Shown piece after piece: positions 23,439 through 35,228 of a stretch of DNA of 35,228 nt. A program made the translations under genes and the position numbers. The notes below the pieces were generated by a model. The model did no database searches, was not told the origin of the DNA, and saw only the letters and a list, made by a program, of their open reading frames with translations. The stretch lies in the NCBI GenBank assembly GCA_020725645.1, contig DYEQ01000090.1, positions 1 through 35,228 on the forward strand, given 5' to 3'. The DNA comes from Candidatus Fermentithermobacillaceae bacterium (lineage in GTDB: Bacteria; Bacillota; Sulfobacillia; Fermentithermobacillales; DUSS01). The first letter of the stretch is position 1; each line of letters begins with the position of its first letter.

Positions 23439-25523
23439 CTACTTATTCTCCTTCTCTTTCTCTTTCCTGGCCGCTTCAATGATGCCCTCAGCTACCTGGG
23501 CGGGAACTTCTTCGTACCTATCAAACTCCATCTTGAAGATGCCCCTGCCCTGAGTCATCGACCGGAGGTCTATGGCGTATTTCAACATCTCGGCCATCGG
23601 GACCATCGCCTTAATGATCTGGAAAGGACCCTTGGCCTCCACGCCCAGAATCCGTCCTCGTCTCTTGTTGAAATCGCCCATGATATCGCCCATGAACTGC
23701 TCGGGCACCATGACCTCCACCCGCATGATGGGCTCGAGGAGTACGGGGTTAGCTTCGGAGCAGCCCTTCTTGAAGGCAAGCGATGCAGCTATCTTGAATG
23801 CCAGTTCCGATGAGTCAACCGGATGGTACGAGCCGTCGTAAAGGATTGCTCTCAAGTTCGTGACCGGGTACCCGGCCAGTACACCTTCGTTAAGAGCTTC
23901 CCGCAGACCCTTTTCCACAGCGGGAATATACTGCCTGGGAACGGCTCCGCCGAAGATCTTATCCACGAACTCGAAGTCTTTATCGGGCGCGGGTTCGAAT
24001 TCGATAAACACGTGACCGTACTGGCCTCTACCGCCCGTTTGTTTCTTGTGCTTGCCCTCAGCTTTCGCTGTGCCCTTAATGGTCTCCCGGTAGGGAACTT
24101 TTGGAAGCGAAAGCTCCACATCCACGTGGAACTTGTCCCTGAGTTTGGTGGTGGTGACGTCTACGTGCACCTCTCCCAAACCCGACAGTATGGTTTCGCC
24201 GGTTTCGGTGTTCCGTTCCACCCGAATCGTGGGGTCTTCTTCAACCAGTCGCTGCAGACCCGCGGATATTTTGTCTTCGTCTCCTTTGGTCTTCGGTCGT
24301 ACAGCTACCGAGTAGACGGGTTTGGGGAAAGCTATCGGCTCGTAAACGATGGGTGACGATTCCAAACACAGGGTGTCCCCGGTGGTCGTCTCCTGGAGTT
24401 TGGCCACCGCGCCTATGTCGCCGCCGGACACTTCCGGTACCGGTTCCTGGCTCTTACCCTTTATCGAATAAAGCTGCCCCACCCGTTCGGACCTGCCTCT
24501 TGTGGCGTTAAAGCAAGTGGTGTTGGAGACGAACTTGCCCGAGTAAACCCGGAACAGAGACAGCTTCCCGACGAAGGGGTCAGCCGTGGTCTTCCATACC
24601 AGGGCCGAGAACGGCGCTCCCGGTGCCGCCTCAAATGACTTTTCCTCCTCCGAGCCCGGGGCCTTCCCCACCGGCGCCTTCACATCAGCTGGCGACGGCA
24701 TGTAAGCAACGATGGAATCCATTATGGCATGCACTCCGATGGTCTTGGCGACCGAAGCGGGGATGGCCGGAAAAGATTTCCGCTTGAGGACAGCTAGTTT
24801 GATGCCTCTGACGATCTCTTCCGGGGTGAGCTCCTGGCCCTCGATGTACTTTTCCATGAGCTGGTCGTCCCCGTCGCAAGCGGTCTCGACGAGTTTCTCT
24901 TTGGCGGACTCCACGGCATCCTTCAGGTCTTGAGGAATATCCTGTTCGGCTATCTTGCCTTCGCCTTGCGTAACCAGAGCTTTGCCGCCGATGACATCGA
25001 CGACCCCCCGGAAGCCCGCTTCCTTGCCGAGCGGGATATAAAGCGGCACGACATGACCACCAAAAGCACGGTTGACTTCCTCAAGAGTCTTCCAAAAATC
25101 CGTATTCTCTCTATCAAGCTTGTTTATAGCTATGATGCAGGAGAGATTCCGTTGCCGCGCGTAATCCCATACGATTTCGGTCCCTACCTGTACACCGCCG
25201 GTCGCATCGACGACGACTACCACCCCTTCTACAACCCGAAGAGCTGATAGTACGTCGCCCACGAAGTCGAAATATCCCGGGGTGTCAAGCAGGTTTATCT
25301 TCGTGCCTTTCCATTCAACAGGCGCCACCGAAGTAGATATGGTGGTCTTGCGACGTATTTCCTCGGAATCGAAATCCAGTACCGATGTACCTTCATCAAC
25401 CTTGCCAAGCCGCGTGTTGCCGCCGGATATAAAGAGCATGGCATCGCCAAGCGACGTCTTGCCGGCGCCGCTATGAGCTATAAGAGCGACATTACGCAGA
25501 TTTTCTATGGAATATTCCTTCAC
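23439..25523 (-). CDS. EF-G-like translational GTPase (FusA2-type)
   Basis: Paralogue of elongation factor G. GTP-binding domain with G1 AHSGAGKTS (16-24), G3 DTPGYFDF and G4 NKLD; domain II (about 315-400) followed by domains III-V ending in MTQGRGIFKMEFDRYEEVP. The G1 loop AHSGAGKTS, rather than AHIDAGKTT of the canonical protein, marks the EF-G-like subgroup whose role is not well settled (stress translation, ribosome recycling). Start GTG at 25523, eight bases after GGAGGG; an upstream in-frame extension of 38 codons overlaps the promoter. 694 residues. The canonical fusA would be expected in the str operon elsewhere. Confidence 0.93.
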   Translation of the reverse strand: MKEYSIENLRNVALIAHSGAGKTSLGDAMLFISGGNTRLGKVDEGTSVLDFDSEEIRRKTTISTSVAPVEWKGTKINLLDTPGYFDFVGDVLSALRVVEGVVVVVDATGGVQVGTEIVWDYARQRNLSCIIAINKLDRENTDFWKTLEEVNRAFGGHVVPLYIPLGKEAGFRGVVDVIGGKALVTQGEGKIAEQDIPQDLKDAVESAKEKLVETACDGDDQLMEKYIEGQELTPEEIVRGIKLAVLKRKSFPAIPASVAKTIGVHAIMDSIVAYMPSPADVKAPVGKAPGSEEEKSFEAAPGAPFSALVWKTTADPFVGKLSLFRVYSGKFVSNTTCFNATRGRSERVGQLYSIKGKSQEPVPEVSGGDIGAVAKLQETTTGDTLCLESSPIVYEPIAFPKPVYSVAVRPKTKGDEDKISAGLQRLVEEDPTIRVERNTETGETILSGLGEVHVDVTTTKLRDKFHVDVELSLPKVPYRETIKGTAKAEGKHKKQTGGRGQYGHVFIEFEPAPDKDFEFVDKIFGGAVPRQYIPAVEKGLREALNEGVLAGYPVTNLRAILYDGSYHPVDSSELAFKIAASLAFKKGCSEANPVLLEPIMRVEVMVPEQFMGDIMGDFNKRRGRILGVEAKGPFQIIKAMVPMAEMLKYAIDLRSMTQGRGIFKMEFDRYEEVPAQVAEGIIEAARKEKEKENK

Positions 25524-25601
25524 TAAGTGCTCCCTCCTCAGGATAGCGCCCCGCCCAACCGAATCTCGCGGTTCAGAGGGTCCGGTCGAGGTTCCTCCGG
25601 C

Positions 25602-25631
25602 ATGATACCAGTTAGTGTGATGAACACGCAA
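25602..25631 (-). promoter_or_regulatory. Candidate promoter of the EF-G-like gene
   Basis: TTGCGT (25626-25631) and TATCAT (25602-25607) with an 18-base spacer and TGG before the -10 (extended -10). 79 bases upstream of the GTG start. Confidence 0.55.
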
Positions 25632-25754
25632 GACCAACCGGAAGCTGCGTGAAGAGCTGTTCGTCTATAAAACATGACGCCCCACCGCCGCAAACCCTCG
25701 CTTAGCGCAGTCAAGGTGCGTAAAGTAACGACCGGTCTTCTGGACCACAACGGA

Positions 25755-25782
25755 AGCGGGGGCGGTTTTCGCCGTCCCCGCT
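25755..25782 (-). terminator. Terminator of the BsuPI-domain gene
   Basis: On the minus strand AGCGGGGACGG and CCGCCCCCGCT pair around CGAAAA with one mismatch. It lies 31 bases after the stop codon. The U tract is weak. Confidence 0.5.
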
Positions 25783-25812
25783 CTCTTTACCGTGTTGCTT
25801 TTCTACTGGGAA

Positions 25813-26658
25813 CTACCACACGTAGAACCACGTTTGAGCGAGCGTTACATAATACCCGTTCGCTGTGTTCGAGCGGATCTCCGCCATATACCACCCAGGT
25901 TCGAGACCCTTAAGGTTTACGAAAGCGTAGCGCGTGGCGCCGCTTTCCATATATCCGATAGAGTCGCTGAAGCCAACTCCGGGAACATACTGGACCGACC
26001 CGACCTTCCTCACCATAACCTGGTAACCGTACTGGTAGGGGAGCCAAATGTCACGGCCGGACTTGTTCTTCACCACGACGCGAAGCCGCGGGTATGGGTT
26101 CAACCAGGACGGTCCCATGAAACTTACGGAGTAGGACACCGGCTCCCGGCCTGTAACCCATATATACGCGCTCGCTACCGGGTACCATCTAGACTCCGCC
26201 AGGAAGTAAGCTTGTACCATGTAGGATCCTTGCGGAACCCAGGGCAAAGCCGCCTTATACATTTTGACCTCACCGGCCTCGATGGTTTCGGTGGTAACTA
26301 CCTGAGCGAAGGTCCTTTCGGCACCCCAACGCCAAATGGGGAGTCCATCAGCCCAGAGCACGAAATCCACCTGCTGGCTCGTGGGGAATTCTGCGGTGAC
26401 AGGCTTTCCAGTATCATTCACCACGAGAAGTCGCAGCTCTCCGGTCTCGGGCAAGTATTGCAGAACGTACTCAAGACCGAGGCGAGATGCGCCCGGGGAC
26501 CACCCGTTCCCACCACCGATTGGGAAGGGGTACCACCAGTACCAGTCTTGGTAGCCTTGAGCCGCTAGACCGGCCCAGTTCGGACTCGCCATTACGGGCA
26601 CCGCCAATCCCAGAGCCGTAACCGCGGCAACAAGTACTATAACAGCTAGGCGTCGCAT
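25813..26658 (-). CDS. Secreted protein with BsuPI (proteinase-inhibitor-like) domain
   Basis: The first 25 residues (MRRLAVIVLVAAVTALGLAV, then PVMAS) are a classic signal peptide with a likely cut after MAS. Residues about 55-170 resemble the BsuPI beta-sandwich: a strand pair (VVNDTGKPVTAEFPTSQQVD), FVLWADGLPIWRWGA, then EAGEVKMYKAALPWVPQGSY. Residues about 180-280 look like a second immunoglobulin-like sandwich ending YYVTLAQTWFYVW. Aromatic-rich surface. The ATG at 26658 follows AAAGGATGA at eight bases; a longer reading exists but begins upstream of the site. Function unknown; BsuPI was named for an intracellular proteinase inhibitor, but most members are untested. Confidence 0.75.
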   Translation of the reverse strand: MRRLAVIVLVAAVTALGLAVPVMASPNWAGLAAQGYQDWYWWYPFPIGGGNGWSPGASRLGLEYVLQYLPETGELRLLVVNDTGKPVTAEFPTSQQVDFVLWADGLPIWRWGAERTFAQVVTTETIEAGEVKMYKAALPWVPQGSYMVQAYFLAESRWYPVASAYIWVTGREPVSYSVSFMGPSWLNPYPRLRVVVKNKSGRDIWLPYQYGYQVMVRKVGSVQYVPGVGFSDSIGYMESGATRYAFVNLKGLEPGWYMAEIRSNTANGYYVTLAQTWFYVW

Positions 26659-27024
26659 TACGTCTATCATCCTTTCGTTTGTGTTTTCCTGGTCCGTCGT
26701 TGCCCGAGGATTTCTTGTCAAGTTCGTTTCGGGTCAGCCACACACCATAATACGATAACACATGCTAGCAGTCGGGGGGACTGGTAAGTGATGGTTGCGC
26801 GATTCCTCTGGTCAGCCGGAAGGACGTCTTCTTACACTACGAGCCACGCCCGTGGCATTGTCATATGTTTGTAGGATCTGACACTCCGATCCATGATCGA
26901 TTCAAGCCGAAAGAGGCGGGGATGACCCTACCGCTCGGGGGTTCGTCCAATTAATACCGGGCGAGCTGGTTCCCGCTCGCAGGTATCGCATTACTCTCGG
27001 GAAAGACCCGCCCGGCATATCCTT
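26659..27024. other. Non-coding gap between the PTS operon end and the BsuPI gene
   Basis: No gene is supported. It contains the inverted repeat at 26954-26986. On the minus strand a TATTAT in the left part could be a -10 for the BsuPI gene, but no good -35 accompanies it. Confidence 0.4.
26954..26986 (-). terminator. Possible terminator of the PTS operon
   Basis: On the minus strand ATACC-T-GCGAGC and GCTCGC-CC-GGTAT pair around an eight-base loop, followed by TAATT. It lies about 40 bases after the PTS IIB stop. Confidence 0.45.
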
Positions 27025-27489
27025 TCATTCTAGGAAGAACGGCTTGTCATCGGGAACTATTCTAAACTCCACTTTTACTCCACTGGCAGCGATTTCTTTC
27101 AGAATCGATAGCTCTTCCTCTGAAAGGGAGATATTTCTGTAAAACGGCTTACGTCCGGGCTTGGAGCCCACACCTCCGACGTTCAGCTTGTCGAACTCGA
27201 CTCCCGACTCCAGAAGCCTCTTAGGTTCCCTCGGGGTCTTGCACAGTACTATGACTTTTTCGTCCCCGCTGTTGTCCTCCGTAAGGGCCCGTGCTGCATC
27301 CTCTACGGTCAAAGCCTCTACCGAGATTCCGTTGGGCGCCGCCATTTTAAACAGCTGGAGCGAGAATTTATCTTTGGCCACGAAGTCATCGGCGATGATG
27401 ATCTTTTTCGCCCCGGTGACCTTAAGCCAACCTGTCATCACCTGACCGTGAATTAACCTGTCGTCAATCCGTACTAGAACGGGTTGCAT
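27025..27489 (-). CDS. PTS system mannose/fructose/sorbose family IIB component
   Basis: Takes phosphate from IIA and passes it to the incoming sugar. VRIDDRLIHGQVMTGW near the N-terminus holds the phosphorylated His14, typical of the mannose-family IIB. 154 residues, one domain, full length. The ATG is preceded by GGAGGGG. Last gene of the operon; separate from IIA as in sorbose-type systems. Confidence 0.92.
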   Translation of the reverse strand: MQPVLVRIDDRLIHGQVMTGWLKVTGAKKIIIADDFVAKDKFSLQLFKMAAPNGISVEALTVEDAARALTEDNSGDEKVIVLCKTPREPKRLLESGVEFDKLNVGGVGSKPGRKPFYRNISLSEEELSILKEIAASGVKVEFRIVPDDKPFFLE

Positions 27490-27546
27490 CTTCGTTAGTC
27501 CCCTCCTCTCTCTGCGTCTCCTGCCGCAAAGCTTAAACTCACATTT

Positions 27547-27957
27547 TCAGCTGCCCATCATGGCCTCGAGCTCCTTGGAGAAGTCCACGATAGAACCCTG
27601 TCCCTCATGGAGCACCTTGGCGGCCAGGTCCTTCGCGGATCCGGCCTCACCGCGACTCATAACCGCTTGGAGGAGCACGGGCAGGTTCACTCCAGCTATG
27701 CAGCGGCGCTGGGGACTGATTAGTCTCGCGACGACGTTGCATGGAGTGCCTCCCTTAACATCCACGAGGAAAAGAACCTGTTCCCCGGCGCCGCAGGCCC
27801 GCAGCCCTTCGGCCACGCGCTCCGCATAGCCCTCCGGCGATTCCTCCGGTCTTAGTCCAACGGCGAAGACCTTCTCCTGCTGCCCGCAAATGAGAGTCAT
27901 GGCGCTGAGCAACCCGTCGGGAAAGTCCCCATGGCCCAAGATACCTATTACCAACAA
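27547..27957 (-). CDS. PTS system mannose-family IIA component
   Basis: Receives phosphate from HPr. The EIIA-Man fold starts LVIGILGHGDFPDGLLSA with phospho-His at position 9; FLVDVKGGTPCNVVARL and AGVNLPVLLQAV follow. 136 residues. Starts with one of two tandem TTG codons; GGAGGG lies four or seven bases before them. Upstream partner of IIB. Confidence 0.92.
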   Translation of the reverse strand: MLVIGILGHGDFPDGLLSAMTLICGQQEKVFAVGLRPEESPEGYAERVAEGLRACGAGEQVLFLVDVKGGTPCNVVARLISPQRRCIAGVNLPVLLQAVMSRGEAGSAKDLAAKVLHEGQGSIVDFSKELEAMMGS

Positions 27958-28079
27958 ACTCCCTCCTTTGAACGTCCCTTGGATCTACCAGTTGTCGGAC
28001 CTCGCCCTACCACCCGAACGGACCCTATCGATTCAGAGGTCATCACTTGCCCTATCCGACGAGCACGTCGTGGGGAGGT

Positions 28080-29126
28080 CTACTCCATCCGTACAACCAC
28101 TCTATACGCGCCCGGACGTGTAGCGTACTCAAAAGCATCCTGAATTCGGCTGAACGGGAACACTTTCTCTACCAGTTGAGAAACCCGTAGTCTTCCGTTG
28201 GCAACCAGAGCGACTGCCCGTTGGAAGTCGTATTTCCGTGGGCTAATGGTCCCGACCAGTTTTATCTCATTATAGTGGATACGATTGAGATCCACCTCCG
28301 TTTTCGATCCTTTTTCACCATGGTAAGACGTGTAAATGACCATTGTAGCTCCGGTTGCACACACAGCCATTAAATCCGCAAGCAGGCCGGGAGTGCCTCC
28401 GGTAACAAACACCGCTTCCACGCCCTTGCCTCCAGTGGCCTGGCTGATTTGATCCGCCAGCGCTCCACCTGTAGGATCCAGTACAACGTCGGCCCCAAAG
28501 TCTTGAGCCAGCCGGCGCCTTTCCGCTGCAACCTCGGAAACGAGCACACGAGTACCTTTGAGGGTCAATAAGTTGGTATGAATTAACCCCATAACGCCGG
28601 CCCCTACCACCAAGACGTCATCTCCCGGCTGCACGTTGGCTTTATCGACACTGCTGATGCAACACGCGACCGGCTCCGTAAGGGAAGCGGTAATACGGTC
28701 GATTTCCCGAGGGAACTTGAAGACCTGGTACCCGGGTACGGCCATCAATTCGGCAAAGCCACCTGGTCCTGCCGGTCTACCAGGCCGGTGGAGTTTTCTT
28801 GAGTTCAAGCACCGATTGTCGGTGTATTTGCGACAGTTGACACACTGCTCACACCTGTTGATCCGAGACACCGCTACATGATCGCCGGGCTTTACGCTGG
28901 AAACCACCGCGGGCCCGACCTCTTGAACTACTGCTGAGATTTCGTGACCAGCGTAAACCGGGTACGAGGACTCGCGCTCGCCCCGAAACACCCCTTGGTC
29001 GGAGGTACATATCGCGCATGCAATCACTTTTACCAGGATCTCATCATCGCGAAGAACCGGTTTCTCCCAGTCTTCGAGTTCGACTTTCCCCGGTCCAACT
29101 ATTTTAGCTACCTTATACGTGTTCAT
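28080..29126 (-). CDS. Zinc-dependent medium-chain alcohol/polyol dehydrogenase
   Basis: Likely NAD(P)-dependent oxidation of a polyol or polyol phosphate to a ketose (phosphate). Catalytic zinc ligands C40 and H61-E62 (AGHE), structural zinc cysteines C92, C95, C98 and C106, and a Rossmann fold with VVGAGVMGL (about 173-181). Closest in pattern to sorbitol/threonine dehydrogenase-like members used in sugar-alcohol operons; the exact substrate cannot be read. 348 residues. ATG after GGGAGG. Between the aldolase and PTS IIA genes. Confidence 0.88.
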   Translation of the reverse strand: MNTYKVAKIVGPGKVELEDWEKPVLRDDEILVKVIACAICTSDQGVFRGERESSYPVYAGHEISAVVQEVGPAVVSSVKPGDHVAVSRINRCEQCVNCRKYTDNRCLNSRKLHRPGRPAGPGGFAELMAVPGYQVFKFPREIDRITASLTEPVACCISSVDKANVQPGDDVLVVGAGVMGLIHTNLLTLKGTRVLVSEVAAERRRLAQDFGADVVLDPTGGALADQISQATGGKGVEAVFVTGGTPGLLADLMAVCATGATMVIYTSYHGEKGSKTEVDLNRIHYNEIKLVGTISPRKYDFQRAVALVANGRLRVSQLVEKVFPFSRIQDAFEYATRPGAYRVVVRME

Positions 29127-29201
29127 GTGTTTGCCTCCCGTCAGTTGGTATCCACGAGACCGTCGCGCCAGCGCGCGTGATATGGCCTTCCCAGCCAGGC
29201 T

Positions 29202-30050
29202 TCACGCTTTGCCAGACGCTCCAAGCTTTCGCAACCAGTCGCGGGCGACAGGCGCGGCTGCCTTGTTGGCGGTTAACCATATTTTCACTGCTGTCAAGTT
29301 TTCAAGAGGTTCTGTCTCCAGGATCTCCTTGGCCTTCTCCCTGATGGCTACCTGTAGGTCGGTGAAAACGTTAACCTTGGATACCCCCAACGGAGGAGTT
29401 CTCTCGATCCCCGGAGTGCTCGAGCCACCGTGAATCACCAGTGGCAGATCCACCTGCTCCGCGATCTTCGAAAGTCTCTCGAGATCGAGTGTAGGGGTAA
29501 ACTTATACATCCCGTGAGCTGTACCGATAGCTACCGCAAGGAAGTCCACGCCGGTAAGTTCGGCAAACCGGCGTGCATCCTCCGGTCTAGTAAGGAATTG
29601 CGCTCGTTCTTCCTCGGAAGGAGCATGATCCGCTACACCCACATGACCGATTTCCGCCTCAACTGACACCCCACAGGCATGGCATATCTCCACAATCCTC
29701 TTCGTGGCTGCGACGTTCTCGTCGAACGGAAGTTTGGACCCGTCAAACATCACGGAGCTAAAACCTGCTCTGACCCCTTGCATTATGATGTCGAACGAGT
29801 AGCCATGATCAAGGTGAAGTGCCACAGGGATTCTGTGTCTTCTTGCCAGCACGTCGGCCATAGCGAATACCGTGTCCGCACCGTAAGTCTTAACGGTGGG
29901 CTCTGCCGCTTCGATCAAACAAGGGGCGTTTTCCTCTTCGCACGTTTCCATGATTACCATGATACTCTGCAGGTCCGTGATGTTGAAAGCCGGCACCGCG
30001 TAGCCTCTGCGTCTGGCATCAACCAGGATCTCTTTTGTGTTGACCAGCAT
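29202..30050 (-). CDS. Class II ketose-(bis)phosphate aldolase, FbaA/GatY/KbaY type
   Basis: Zinc-dependent aldol cleavage of a ketose phosphate to dihydroxyacetone phosphate and an aldehyde. Catalytic D81 and zinc ligands H82 (HLDHG), H179 (GTAHG) and H207 (VIHGGS); phosphate-binding GGSSTPG and NVFTDLQ. 282 residues. ATG six bases after the AOR stop, with GGAGG ten bases before it. No sugar-phosphate kinase is in the operon, so a ketose 1-phosphate rather than a bisphosphate may be the substrate; this is inference. Confidence 0.9.
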   Translation of the reverse strand: MLVNTKEILVDARRRGYAVPAFNITDLQSIMVIMETCEEENAPCLIEAAEPTVKTYGADTVFAMADVLARRHRIPVALHLDHGYSFDIIMQGVRAGFSSVMFDGSKLPFDENVAATKRIVEICHACGVSVEAEIGHVGVADHAPSEEERAQFLTRPEDARRFAELTGVDFLAVAIGTAHGMYKFTPTLDLERLSKIAEQVDLPLVIHGGSSTPGIERTPPLGVSKVNVFTDLQVAIREKAKEILETEPLENLTAVKIWLTANKAAAPVARDWLRKLGASGKA

Positions 30051-30053
30051 GCC

Positions 30054-31991
30054 TCAGATGCCTCCAGTCTCTCCACACTTGTGTCTAACGAGATGAGCCG
30101 GTATTGAACCGGCGTATTCTTCCAAGCCCAGCTCTCTGATAGTCTCCAGGGTAGGAATTCCGTCTTCGCTCCAGCCCTGGATCCGGTAGTACTCGCCAAG
30201 CATCTTGCCGAGATGCGGAACGTGCCCGGCGGAACCCCCCTCCGGGAAGGCGAGCGTCGCAATTCGAGGGGGAATGGTGTCGTCCTTTCTGCTGATTCCA
30301 CATCGTACATTGTACAGTCGCTTGAGGGTGAATATCCTGGTCCCCCTTCTCAGGAATTCGGACGGGGTCATGTCGACTCCCGTCACGTAGGTGAAATACT
30401 TCGAAACCCGGTCCACACCAGGTCTGAAATAGCGACACATGCACAACGAGTCATACATGCTTCCGATGGCCTGGGCTTTCACAACGAGGTCGGCTTTTCC
30501 CTCCCACGTGTGAGGGTCCAGGGGCTTATCAATGCCGATAGACGGATCCGTTGCTCGGGACTCGAAGATCGACGACTGCCCTTGAAGATGGCAGGCCCCT
30601 CGGTTGGACGTTGCGTACGCCAGTGCCAGACTCGACCGAGCTCTTGGATCGTGGGCGGGAAGCTCCAGACCCTTAACCTGCATTGCGTACTCTTCCGCAC
30701 CTTTTCCGATTACCATAGAGGCCCGTCGAGTACCGAGTCCCAGAACGGCCCCGAAACCTTCTTTACGAGCGATTTGACCAATGAGCGTGAATACGGTTTG
30801 CGGATCCCCCCACCTGAGGTGAAGACCACCGGTGTCCCGGGTATCGATTACACCCTTTTCATACAGCTCCATTGCAAACGCGATGGTCGCACCGGTCGAT
30901 ATGGTGTCGAGCCCGAGCCGATTGCACAATTCGTTGGCGCAAACTATGGCGTCGAGGTCATCCATGAGTACGTAGGAGCCCAGGGCCGCCAGCGACTCAT
31001 ACTCGGGACCCCTTCCTTCTACGGGACCGTAAGGGCCGTGAGGGTGGGTAATTATCTTGCCGCACCCGATGGGACACCGGTGGCAAGCGGTCGTCCTGGT
31101 ATTCATCTGCTTTACGATTTGCATACCGCCTATTCGCGAAACTGGTTCCTTCCACGTGCCTTGAGACCAATTCTTTATGGGTAGGTCGCCGATTTTCTCA
31201 ACCCACTCGAGACTGGCCCCCGTGCCGTATCTTTTCATGCCTTCGTTGGCCCTCACCGTCTCCGGGCCTATGCGGCGGTTCATCTCGAGCACTGCATCTG
31301 GATTGTAAATAGGCACATCACGGGTTCCAAGTACAGCGACGGCTTTCAGATTCTTCGAGCCCATCACAGCACCTAGTCCGCCTCGAGCCGCAGCTCTTGC
31401 TTCCTTACCTTCACTCATGATTGCGGACAAGGGAACCATCCGCTCCCCGGCGACACCTATGCAAGTCACAACAGCTTTGTCCGTCGTCTCAGCTTTTACC
31501 CGCCTATCCGTTTCAAACGTGTCAAGGCCCCAGAGGTGAATTGCCGGCCGGAGTTCAGCTCTTCCCTCAGCGATCCATAGGTACACAGGCGATTCCGACC
31601 GTCCGCGAACAACTATCCCGTCGAATCCTGCCCTCTTGAGCATCGTACCCCAGTAGCCACCGGCGCTGGCTTCACCATAGATTCCGGTCAGCGGAGATTT
31701 CGCAGCCACCTCGTGCCTGCCCGAACACATTACCGGGGTGCCTGTAAGAGGGCCGGTCATAAAACAAAGGACATTCTCGGGCCCCAGCGGCGCTGTCTCA
31801 GGGCCGGTCTCTCTATATAGGATGTCAGCGGCAAAACCGCTCCCACCTATTAAGTCCAGAACGCGGACGTCCGTCGCCCTTGATTCGCAGGTTCCCTTTG
31901 TGAGGTCGACATGAAGGATTTGCCCCATATAACCCGGGCGCATTCCGCCCGAGCATCTATCAACCGGTCTGCCCCCGCGTACTGACTCCAA
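30054..31991 (-). CDS. Aldehyde:ferredoxin oxidoreductase (tungsten-pterin family)
   Basis: Oxidises aldehydes to carboxylic acids and reduces ferredoxin, using a tungstopterin and a 4Fe-4S cluster. The N-terminal domain has GYMGQILHVDLTKG and IYGEASAGGYWG; the middle has the cluster cysteines CHRCPIGC plus a distal Cys in DSLCMCRYF, and the pterin-binding AARGGLGAVMGSKNLKAV. 645 residues from the TTG at 31991, which follows GGAGGTG at six bases. A GTG at 32057 has no such site, and an ATG at 31943 matches the usual family start; either is possible. Its position between PTS IID and an aldolase is unusual and suggests it acts on the aldehyde released by that aldolase. Confidence 0.9.
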   Translation of the reverse strand: MESVRGGRPVDRCSGGMRPGYMGQILHVDLTKGTCESRATDVRVLDLIGGSGFAADILYRETGPETAPLGPENVLCFMTGPLTGTPVMCSGRHEVAAKSPLTGIYGEASAGGYWGTMLKRAGFDGIVVRGRSESPVYLWIAEGRAELRPAIHLWGLDTFETDRRVKAETTDKAVVTCIGVAGERMVPLSAIMSEGKEARAAARGGLGAVMGSKNLKAVAVLGTRDVPIYNPDAVLEMNRRIGPETVRANEGMKRYGTGASLEWVEKIGDLPIKNWSQGTWKEPVSRIGGMQIVKQMNTRTTACHRCPIGCGKIITHPHGPYGPVEGRGPEYESLAALGSYVLMDDLDAIVCANELCNRLGLDTISTGATIAFAMELYEKGVIDTRDTGGLHLRWGDPQTVFTLIGQIARKEGFGAVLGLGTRRASMVIGKGAEEYAMQVKGLELPAHDPRARSSLALAYATSNRGACHLQGQSSIFESRATDPSIGIDKPLDPHTWEGKADLVVKAQAIGSMYDSLCMCRYFRPGVDRVSKYFTYVTGVDMTPSEFLRRGTRIFTLKRLYNVRCGISRKDDTIPPRIATLAFPEGGSAGHVPHLGKMLGEYYRIQGWSEDGIPTLETIRELGLEEYAGSIPAHLVRHKCGETGGI

Positions 31992-32060
31992 CCGATCCAC
32001 CTCCAGCTGGGCGGGGCTCCAATCCTTGGGTATGGAGCCCCGCCCAAACCACTCCACCGG

Positions 32061-32885
32061 CTAACCAAGCAACTTGAGATAACCGAGAATGAACCCTACC
32101 AGGAAAACGAGTCCGATGATCCTGTTTACCCTAACTCCCCGTCTCAAAAGCACCCATATCCCCAAGACCAGAGCCAGCGGCAACAGATTGGGAAGTATCT
32201 TATCGAGCACCTCGGTCTGGAGATCGATGGGTGGCAGATCAGAAATGCTGACTTTGCCGATGATCTTGAAATTGACGTAGCGCGCGCTCAAAGCGCCCGC
32301 CGCCATAAGTCCGATGAGGCTCGCGGCCTTTGTGGCCTGCTTAAGAAGCCCGCTCTCGGTCAGCCGTTCGATAAGGGGTCCGCCTTGCTGGTAAGCGGCC
32401 ATGAACCACCAGTAGTGCAGCGGGTACGAAATTCCCAGCACCAAGACAGTATAGAGGATGGGTCCTAGTACGCTTCCCTGGAGACCGAGGGAAATCCCCA
32501 CTGCAAGCAAAATGGGGAAAATCATACCCTGAAAAACGGAGTCACCGATGCCGGCCAGCGGTCCCATAAGCGACGTCTTGACGCTGTTGATCGTCTCGTC
32601 CGGAATGTCGGCCCCATTTGCTTTCTGCTCTTCCATGGCGGCCACGATGCCCGCGGCAATGGTCCCGGTAGTCGTATTCGTATTGAAGAACACAAGATGC
32701 CGCTTAAGGGCTGCGGATATCTCCTCCTTGGTATGGTAGAGTCGCTTTATGACTGGAATCATCGCGTGGGCAAACCCGACACCCTGCATTCGCTCGTAAT
32801 TGTACAGACCATGGAGAAACCCGGTCCAAATCGCCCATACCTTGATCAGGTCGAGCCTGGTCAGCTTCTTTTCATCAGCGGCCAT
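32061..32885 (-). CDS. PTS system mannose-family IID component
   Basis: Membrane subunit that, with IIC, forms the sugar channel. Amphipathic N-terminus (YNYERMQGVGFAHAMIPVIK), a region with several membrane segments in the C-terminal half, and the conserved FFNTNTTTGTIAAGIVAAME and SLMGPLAGIGDSVFQG. 274 residues. ATG after GGAGG, one base downstream of the IIC stop. Next gene in the operon is the AOR. Confidence 0.94.
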   Translation of the reverse strand: MAADEKKLTRLDLIKVWAIWTGFLHGLYNYERMQGVGFAHAMIPVIKRLYHTKEEISAALKRHLVFFNTNTTTGTIAAGIVAAMEEQKANGADIPDETINSVKTSLMGPLAGIGDSVFQGMIFPILLAVGISLGLQGSVLGPILYTVLVLGISYPLHYWWFMAAYQQGGPLIERLTESGLLKQATKAASLIGLMAAGALSARYVNFKIIGKVSISDLPPIDLQTEVLDKILPNLLPLALVLGIWVLLRRGVRVNRIIGLVFLVGFILGYLKLLG

Positions 32886-32886
32886 A

Positions 32887-33630
32887 TTAGCTTGCCTCCT
32901 TTCCGGTAACTTGCCTCTGGGTAAGCAAGACGAAGCAGATGCCCAGGATCACCACCGCCATGATGTCAAGTTTGAGGTAAGCCGCGAGCACGAACCCAAT
33001 GAAAAACGCCGGCAAGATCGAAAGGTCGGTGGCCATATACCTGAGGAGCAGGGCGTAGCCAACGGCCGGTAGCAGCTTACCCGCCACCGTGATTCCGGAG
33101 ATGACGGAAGCCGGTAATAAAGAGAGAAGAGACTGTATGGGACCAGCTCCGTATCGTACGGCCAAGAACGTGACGAGCCCAGGGTATACGAGAGCGAAAA
33201 GGGTGCCGGGGATTATATTCAGCCAGACTATGCCTCGCATATCCCCTTCCTCGGCATAACGGTCTGCCCAGTGCGCAAAGAACGAGAAAAGGGACATCTT
33301 CAATACGTTTACGGAGTTGCCGATCATCGCCACGGGTACCGCGAAAGCAAGGGCCATCTCAGGGGTCATGTTCGCCAAGATACCCATGGCGGGACCGAGC
33401 ACCCCTGCAATGAGGATATCGGCTGGCGCCGACCCGCCGACAGACATGTAGCCGATGTACACGGCGTTGATTGTAGCTCCGATGATCGTGCCCTTAATTG
33501 GGTCACCCAAAATCAGGCCTACTACGAATCCGGATACCAGTGGTCTCATGAACGCAAAAAACCTGGTGTTTAAAGTCAACGAGCTACCTATCCAAAATGC
33601 CCACAATGATACAAGAATGGCTTGTAGCAA
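32887..33630 (-). CDS. PTS system mannose-family IIC component
   Basis: Integral membrane subunit that selects the sugar. Seven or so hydrophobic segments; typical features are RPLVSGFVVGLILGDPIKG and GATINAVYIGYMSVGGSAPAD. 247 residues. TTG start after GGGAGGGAGCGAG. First gene of the operon after the intergenic region with the SorC-type regulator upstream. Confidence 0.94.
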   Translation of the reverse strand: MLQAILVSLWAFWIGSSLTLNTRFFAFMRPLVSGFVVGLILGDPIKGTIIGATINAVYIGYMSVGGSAPADILIAGVLGPAMGILANMTPEMALAFAVPVAMIGNSVNVLKMSLFSFFAHWADRYAEEGDMRGIVWLNIIPGTLFALVYPGLVTFLAVRYGAGPIQSLLSLLPASVISGITVAGKLLPAVGYALLLRYMATDLSILPAFFIGFVLAAYLKLDIMAVVILGICFVLLTQRQVTGKEAS

Positions 33631-33873
33631 CTCGCTCCCTCCCTACACAGGCTGTATTATCAGACCGACCCGCAGCTGAACGGGTGTGCTGACGTTTGTT
33701 CTATTCGACGCCGATGGTGGTAATCCTTCTATTTTCCGATTCTTTTTCTAAGTGCAATTATCATGATTGAAGGCAGGAGTGTAGTCTCCACGGGCGACCG
33801 AGCAGGTTTTTGTAGGGGGAGTGTATGTAGACAAGGTTACCAGGTGGAATCTACAAAGACCCTGGCTCTATCT
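33631..33873. other. Leader region between sorC-type gene and PTS operon
   Basis: No gene is seen. It likely holds the PTS operon promoter. On the minus strand, TTGCAC next to the palindrome may be a -35, but no convincing -10 follows at the right spacing. No -24/-12 sigma-54 element is apparent either. Confidence 0.4.
33755..33769. promoter_or_regulatory. Candidate SorC-type operator (imperfect palindrome)
   Basis: CAATTATCATGATTG pairs with itself at 12 of 14 arm positions. It lies in the leader between the regulator and the operon it probably controls. The sequence is AT-rich in a GC-rich background. No data on the true operator. Confidence 0.3.
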
Positions 33874-34830
33874 CTATGGTGACGTTTCGAGGATACCCGC
33901 AGCTGCGGAAACGTCTGTTACTAGAACATCAACCCAACGACCTTTTAGGGCAGCCGTGATAGCTGCGACTTTACCAATACCGCCGGCCACGGCTAGAACC
34001 GTGTCGGCACGACGCAATGCGGGCAAATCAATCCCCATCACTACATCGGTCTCCTCGGCGACAACCTCGCCGTTTTCGTCTAGAAATCTGCCGCAAATGT
34101 CTGCTACGACGCGTCGTTTGGAGTACTCTTCCGCCGCGCGGACTCTCGCTAGAAACAGCGAGTCCTGGGTACCACCGACCTTACCCACTCCCACCAGTGC
34201 GTAATGTAGATTACTCCACATAGATACGCATTGGGCGACCGCAGCATCTTCGAGCAACGCTGTTTTTATCTTAGGGCTGGTTACATAGTAGGGAACTTGA
34301 AAGAACACGCATGAGCCGCCAAGCTTTTCGGATGCCATACGAACCATTTCGTTAACCTGGAACTTAGCGTCGTACAACCCGGCCCCGCCCACTAGCGGAG
34401 TCACTTTTAATCCTGGTACGCGTCTTGAGCCACTCAGTGCCGATACTGTGTGGAAGACAGTAGCACCTCGTCCGATACCTAGTACCTGATTGCCCCGAAG
34501 ACCCTGCTCCAAAACCTGGGCAGCTTTGGCACCTATCCTCCTTTTTATCTCGTCATCCGTTCCGGCCCCCGAGACGACGTGGACAGCTCTCAGGTGAAAT
34601 CTGTCACGGAGTTTATCTGCCATCTGCTTTATGGAATCCCTGGGATCATTGATTGAGACACTTACTATGCCCTTAGCTCGAGCGACGGACAGCAGCCTCG
34701 ACACCATCGGGCGAGATATGCCCACAGCTCTGGCGATAGCCTCTTGTGTCATGCTGTCCCTGTAATACATCTCGCATAGCCTTATCACCAGATCCAGGGT
34801 CTCGTCGTCGTAGATTTCTCGCAGTGCCAT
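33874..34830 (-). CDS. SorC-family sugar-binding transcriptional regulator
   Basis: Controls sugar catabolic operons in response to phosphorylated sugars. N-terminal HTH (about residues 26-50; SMTQEAIARAVGISRPMVSR), then a sugar-phosphate-binding domain like that of glucosamine-6-phosphate isomerase: GIGRGATVFHTVSAL, VVGVGK-like ALVGVGKVGGTQD, and near the end TVLAVAGGIGKVAAITAALKG. 318 residues. ATG preceded by GGGGAAGG. Directly upstream of the PTS-AOR operon on the same strand, so probably its regulator. Confidence 0.9.
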   Translation of the reverse strand: MALREIYDDETLDLVIRLCEMYYRDSMTQEAIARAVGISRPMVSRLLSVARAKGIVSVSINDPRDSIKQMADKLRDRFHLRAVHVVSGAGTDDEIKRRIGAKAAQVLEQGLRGNQVLGIGRGATVFHTVSALSGSRRVPGLKVTPLVGGAGLYDAKFQVNEMVRMASEKLGGSCVFFQVPYYVTSPKIKTALLEDAAVAQCVSMWSNLHYALVGVGKVGGTQDSLFLARVRAAEEYSKRRVVADICGRFLDENGEVVAEETDVVMGIDLPALRRADTVLAVAGGIGKVAAITAALKGRWVDVLVTDVSAAAGILETSP

Positions 34831-35062: not shown

Positions 35063-35113
35063 GTATAGAAGTGTTTTTGCTTCTACGAGAAATGAAGCGC
35101 ATGAGAAATAAAA

Positions 35114-35137
35114 AAGCCCTGCGTTTTCGCAGGGCTT
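35114..35137 (-). terminator. rRNA operon terminator
   Basis: On the minus strand AAGCCCTGCG and CGCAGGGCTT are perfect 10-bp arms around a tetraloop, followed by TTTTTTATTT. A strong rho-independent terminator just after 5S rRNA. Confidence 0.93.
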
Positions 35138-35146
35138 TTAAAATCA

Positions 35147-35228
35147 GCTCCCGGCGGCGACCTACTCTCCCGGGCCACAGGGGCCAAGTACCATCGGCGC
35201 TGGAGGGCTTAACTTCCGTGTTCGGGAT
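35147..35228 (-). rRNA. rrf: 5S rRNA, 3' part (cut by window edge)
   Basis: On the minus strand the sequence contains ATCCCGAACACGGAAGTTAA followed by GCCC and GGGAGAGTAGGTCGCCGCC, the conserved 3' half of bacterial 5S rRNA. The 5' part is outside the window. It marks the end of an rRNA operon running leftwards. Confidence 0.95.

Follow-up and report, generated by a model that had tools for sequence, protein, structure and literature searches.

The sor operons for L-sorbose in enterobacteria and lactobacilli bring together a SorC-type regulator, a mannose/sorbose-family PTS, and a Zn-dehydrogenase (SorE), and the sor operon of Lactobacillus casei also carries a homologue of class II aldolases. 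All of these elements are present in the operon described here, which, unlike the sor operons, has no sorbitol-6-phosphate dehydrogenase gene between positions 27025 and 34830 and has an additional gene, that of a tungsten-type aldehyde:ferredoxin oxidoreductase (AOR). The galactitol (gat) operon of Escherichia coli similarly has a PTS and a Zn-dehydrogenase, and its class II aldolase, GatY, shares 42% identity with the aldolase of our operon, but its PTS is of a different family, its route is a bisphosphate route, GatY contains a D-x-R motif, and no aldehyde oxidase is encoded. We know of no physiological substrate for most bacterial AORs, and no description of PTS-linked AORs was found in the open-access literature searched.

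The window, by which we mean the whole analysed stretch of 35,228 nucleotides (contig C67, genome G000), comes from an uncultured, heat-loving member of Candidatus Fermentithermobacillia (Bacillota) represented by a MAG of 2.1 Mb that is 90.6% complete. Its relatives include a sister species, the Candidatus Fermentithermobacillaceae MAG Bu31 (G002), and Ca. Fermentithermobacillus carboniphilus Bu02 (G007; CP062796.1), which is described as fermenting anaerobically and as having Rnf and a ferredoxin-linked hydrogenase, and whose mannose-type PTS has been assigned to N-acetylglucosamine use (PMC10215811); no mention of an AOR was found in that paper. The host genome itself encodes RnfC, three AORs (one of them in the window), and one type I glycerate kinase; a search of the same genome for a type II glycerate kinase found none. 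PTS EI was also sought in the host MAG and not found, and this absence is likely an assembly gap, because both sister species encode EI, as do the seven other relatives tested. The eight genes of the operon lie where the first-pass annotation had placed them, all on the minus strand and with strong matches to Pfam families, in the order SorC regulator, IIC, IID, AOR, class II aldolase, Zn-dehydrogenase, IIA, and IIB:

33874..34830, minus strand: SorC/DeoR-type regulator with sugar-binding domain (PF04198, Sugar-bind/SorC, 197 bits)
32887..33630, minus strand: PTS IIC, mannose/sorbose family (PF03609, EII-Sor, 221 bits)
32061..32885, minus strand: PTS IID, mannose/sorbose family (PF03613, EIID-AGA, 296 bits)
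32010..32044, minus strand: perfect inverted repeat in the IID-AOR gap, with 11-bp arms as scanned
30054..31943, minus strand: AOR family, 629 aa (PF02730, AFOR_N, 244 bits; PF01314, AFOR_C, 440 bits)
29202..30050, minus strand: class II aldolase lacking D-x-R (PF01116, F_bP_aldolase, 293 bits)
28080..29126, minus strand: Zn-dependent dehydrogenase, probably NAD dependent (PF08240, ADH_N, 80 bits; PF00107, ADH_zinc_N, 68 bits)
27547..27957, minus strand: PTS IIA, mannose family (PF03610, EIIA-man, 72 bits)
27025..27489, minus strand: PTS IIB, sorbose family (PF03830, PTSIIB_sorb, 167 bits)

The operon is an unusual, recurrent combination of ordinary protein families. IIA, IIB, IIC, and IID of the mannose/fructose/sorbose PTS family all score above the Pfam cut-offs. 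Gaps in the upstream part measure 243 bp between SorC and IIC, 1 bp between IIC and IID, and 117 bp between IID and the AOR gene (read from the ATG at 31943); downstream, the AOR and aldolase genes are separated by 3 bp, the aldolase and dehydrogenase genes by 75 bp, the dehydrogenase and IIA genes by 122 bp, and the IIA and IIB genes by 57 bp. The arrangement is kept in Bu31, with protein identities of 85 to 95%, as is the position of SorC upstream of IIC. The most likely start of the AOR gene is the ATG at 31943, because the inverted repeat occupies the IID-AOR gap and homology begins at MRPGYMGQ; the GTG at 32057, which lies just ahead of the repeat, is an unlikely start. The repeat is unique in the window (none expected in shuffles), its arms are conserved in Bu31, and no T run follows it; it is possibly an RNA processing or attenuation element and may set the expression of the PTS and AOR genes apart. 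Among candidate promoters, sigma-70-like sites were no commoner than in shuffles. The operon is followed by genes for an EF-G-family protein and a BsuPI-domain protein (23439-26721), and in the sister species, too, IIB is followed by the EF-G gene; upstream of SorC, the window edge (35112-35228) takes in the last part of a 5S rRNA-like gene together with its terminator.

The solved structures closest to the window AOR are themselves AORs, including that of Pyrococcus furiosus (1aor), and the residues corresponding to the 4Fe-4S cysteines (Cys287, Cys290, Cys294, and Cys503) and to the Glu and His of that enzyme (Glu316 and His452) are conserved; by reference to the P. furiosus protein, we take the last two to be catalytic. 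The closest AORs outside PTS operons, about 50% identical, were discarded as guides to the substrate, their mixed neighborhoods (aminotransferase, thiolase, and, once, LarA) being uninformative. At one locus (L069, 6513-9712), within a sugar-type cluster, an AOR 50% identical to that of the window directly follows a LarA-like gene. In the Zn-dehydrogenase, Cys40, His61, Glu62, and Cys92, Cys95, Cys98, and Cys106 are invariant, as expected of metal-site and catalytic residues, and an acidic residue after beta-2 (Glu198) suggests NAD dependence.

Asp81, His82, His179, and His207, which belong to the expected metal and catalytic sites, are invariant in the alignment of the window aldolase, which has the class II fold according to PF01116. 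The C-terminal D-x-R motif is absent from this protein and from each of the other seven class II aldolases of PTS loci in the alignment (8/8); it is present in GatY and AgaY of E. coli, in Helicobacter pylori FBA, and in a homologue on contig C10 of the host genome whose gene adjoins that of a PfkB-type kinase. E. coli YdjI, annotated as a ketose-1-phosphate aldolase, also lacks it. Few sequences were compared, and we take the motif to be part of the second-phosphate site of bisphosphate aldolases. Two further structures without it, 8q57 and 8q58, are deposited in the PDB under the names KbaY and ketose-bisphosphate aldolase and may count against this argument; they are presumably sulfofructose-1-phosphate aldolases. 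The window operon contains no kinase gene, and a match to the PfkB type, the kinase family searched, was absent from 39 of 40 core loci and present in 1, a core locus being one that joins PTS, Zn-dehydrogenase, and aldolase genes. Because D-x-R and, in all core loci but one, a PfkB-type kinase are missing, a ketose 1-phosphate is favored as the probable substrate of the aldolase, with an unphosphorylated aldehyde as product; the first-pass annotation had read the lack of a kinase in the same way, and that reading gains support. Retro-aldol cleavage of a ketose 1-phosphate yields a 2-hydroxyaldehyde. In a Thermoflexia MAG (L172, 13248-17149), LarA-like racemase, GlcF-like, and GlcD-like genes lie downstream of a PTS-aldolase-dehydrogenase core, and these would suit a 2-hydroxyacid product.

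A search for the co-occurrence of AOR and PTS genes, proposed with the first-pass annotation, recovered the sister-species operon and three further arrangements, together with many related operons that lack an AOR. A second PTS-AOR operon in the host genome (contig C98; L075, 7501-14905) comprises a divergent SorC gene followed by IIB, a fused IIC-IID, a class I (DhnA/FbaB-type) aldolase that is not homologous to the class II enzyme of the window, an AOR, and a Zn-dehydrogenase, and operons of this type are conserved in both sister species. The third type, found in Bu02, encodes HPr, EI, a LevR-type activator, IIA, IIB, IIC, IID, Zn-dehydrogenase, class II aldolase, AOR, and GlpX; a Bu02 relative (G016) has the same order, with the AOR gene cut by the contig end. 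The fourth, in an Anaerolineae MAG (L108), runs on one strand from IID through a GntR-type regulator, a class I aldolase, a Zn-dehydrogenase, an MFS transporter, and an AOR to IIA, the last two about 45 bp apart. By a rough hand estimate over 61 genomes, about 0.55 cases of an AOR gene less than 7 kb from an IID gene would be expected, and 6 were seen; these represent three unrelated operon types, with a seventh case (G016) truncated. Broader sampling of the phylum with permeases of the C98 and Bu02 types added PTS-dehydrogenase-aldolase operons but no further in-operon AOR; C98-like operons in G331 and G355, for example, have no adjacent AOR.

The PTS-linked proteins occupy four places in a tree of 38 AORs, and that of the Bu02 type nests among unlinked AORs, including the third AOR of the host genome. 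A single inherited, PTS-specific clade was rejected by the AU test (p=1.7e-49); the tree was built by a quick method and has some long branches, and the placement of individual lineages is less sure than this rejection. Since the PTS-linked proteins do not form one clade, AOR joined PTS operons repeatedly and independently. Both aldolase classes are found alongside it, which speaks for a tie to the reaction itself and not for the descent of a single block of genes.

When an IID alignment was scanned against 84,980 species genomes and the best 79 loci were kept, the core, with its aldolase and Zn-dehydrogenase genes inside a 6-kb limit, was present in 32. An AOR or ALDH accompanied 12 of these 32 core loci, compared with 1 of the 47 other PTS loci, a difference (Fisher p=4e-5) that is indicative only, the loci being partly related; in the lone noncore case (L171), the ALDH gene lies close to the end of the region covered. 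PTS, dehydrogenase, and aldolase form a recurring core, whose aldehyde slot is filled by an AOR, by an NAD-type ALDH, by an Fe-alcohol dehydrogenase, or by nothing. ALDH operons occur in Actinomycetota (e.g., Terrimesophilobacter mesophilus and Cryobacterium and Homoserinimonas MAGs), in Chloroflexota, and in a Paenibacillus, which also has an Fe-alcohol dehydrogenase in the slot, as do G006 and G482; many core operons have none of the three enzymes nearby. Seven actinomycetotal loci (L110, L117, L129, L135, L136, L157, and L168) carry PTS, EamA transporter, Zn-dehydrogenase, class I aldolase, and ALDH genes, with HPr and EI where detected. G006 (L082, 5680-15987) has two adjacent PTS-aldolase-dehydrogenase sets: one is an ortholog of the window operon without the AOR, and the other includes an Fe-alcohol dehydrogenase. 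The first-pass annotation had made a functional link depend on the AOR and PTS genes staying together; AOR does move independently, in the literal sense that related operons lack it, yet its moves converge on the same partners. Because of this convergence, AOR looks like an exchangeable aldehyde-oxidizing module and not like a fixed part of the PTS operon or an unrelated neighbor.

Taken together, gene content and gene neighborhood make it probable, in our judgment, that the operon serves the catabolism of a sugar alcohol or ketose, in which the aldolase would release DHAP and a 2-hydroxyaldehyde and the AOR would oxidize the aldehyde and reduce ferredoxin. Judging from its family, the mannose/sorbose-type PTS would import and phosphorylate the sugar alcohol or ketose; the Zn-dehydrogenase would interconvert a polyol phosphate and a ketose 1-phosphate, probably with NAD; and the aldolase, on the motif and kinase evidence, would split this ketose 1-phosphate, yielding DHAP and an unphosphorylated 2-hydroxyaldehyde, for which glyceraldehyde is the likeliest candidate and lactaldehyde or glycolaldehyde a less likely one. 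The convergent gene neighborhoods suggest that AOR would then convert the aldehyde to the acid with formation of reduced ferredoxin, which Rnf could reoxidize. DHAP would enter lower glycolysis, and glycerate, if this is the acid, could be phosphorylated by the type I glycerate kinase of the host. The pathway of the first-pass annotation thus explains the operon best at present, if AOR is taken as an exchangeable module; its proposal that AOR oxidizes the aldehyde released by the aldolase gains partial support from the repeated recruitment of AOR and from its replacement by ALDH or Fe-alcohol dehydrogenase.

We give about an even chance to a broader proposal, that these operons constitute a PTS-fed, kinase-free glycolytic branch in which AOR is a dedicated catabolic enzyme bypassing triokinase, GAPDH, and PGK, and that this branch was assembled independently at least four times. 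If so, AOR would gain a defined, PTS-fed catabolic role, sugar breakdown in Rnf-bearing fermenters would be tied to low-potential ferredoxin, and the published N-acetylglucosamine reading of the Bu02 mannose-type PTS would need revision (PMC10215811). The gene neighbors predict an aldehyde-producing step and a testable substrate class for AOR.

In one alternative, the AOR would be mainly detoxifying, clearing reactive aldehydes such as methylglyoxal, glycolaldehyde, or lactaldehyde that escape from the metabolism of triose phosphates, and most of the carbon would flow elsewhere; AORs are generally broad in substrate, and many core operons manage without an aldehyde enzyme. We consider this unlikely, given that AOR or ALDH tracks the aldolase and dehydrogenase among PTS loci, which indicates a specific source of aldehyde. 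It is more doubtful still that the aldolase acts on a ketose bisphosphate formed by a kinase encoded elsewhere, with AOR oxidizing glyceraldehyde 3-phosphate to 3-phosphoglycerate in the manner of archaeal GAPOR: a PfkB-type kinase does adjoin the C10 aldolase homologue, but that homologue has the D-x-R motif that the window aldolase lacks, the operon is without a kinase, and the window AOR scores 38 bits against a curated GAPOR model, far below its cut-off of 1300.

Somewhat less improbable than the bisphosphate route, though still unlikely, is direct import of a ketose such as L-sorbose as its 1-phosphate, with aldolase and AOR acting as proposed and the dehydrogenase serving as a SorE-like side branch that makes a hexitol phosphate. 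The SorC-type regulator and the sorbose-family PTS would suit this arrangement, as would the Zn-dehydrogenase and class II aldolase homologue of Lactobacillus sorbose operons, but without a sorbitol-6-phosphate dehydrogenase in the operon the hexitol phosphate would have no local exit. That AOR is an unrelated neighbor inserted by chance is very improbable; in favor of this, many genomes of the class carry AOR genes, and some orthologous PTS cores have no AOR, but its independent recruitment into operons of one kind, the conserved order in the sister species, and the replacement by ALDH all argue against it.

The reading that we prefer, oxidation by AOR of an aldehyde released from a ketose 1-phosphate, has parallels in other systems. 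The E. coli ydjE-K cluster (NC_000913.3) resembles the window in combining a Zn-dehydrogenase (YdjJ), a class II aldolase (YdjI), and an aldehyde-handling enzyme (YdjG); the annotated substrate of YdjI, L-glycero-L-galacto-octuluronate-1-phosphate, is a ketose 1-phosphate, in keeping with the D-x-R absence that it shares with the window aldolase. The cluster differs in having a separate kinase (YdjH), non-PTS transporters, and a reductase as its aldehyde enzyme, and identities are modest (34% between the window aldolase and YdjI and 25% between the window dehydrogenase and YdjJ). For the breakdown of sugars in archaea, a ferredoxin-dependent oxidation of glyceraldehyde has been proposed (Mukund and Adams 1991, cited in PMC2063504). 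That scheme, as it is outlined in the citing paper, likewise has free glyceraldehyde oxidized to glycerate in an AOR-type reaction with ferredoxin, glycerate kinase acting next, but it belongs to a nonphosphorylative Entner-Doudoroff pathway without a PTS, in which glyceraldehyde arises from KDG aldolase. For the PTS, EamA, and ALDH operons of Actinomycetota and Chloroflexota (L110, L117, L129, and others), no functional description was found in the open-access literature searched; they differ from the window operon in an NAD-type ALDH in place of AOR, a class I aldolase, and in-operon HPr and EI, but they share with it the same core and the same proposed aldehyde-oxidizing step.
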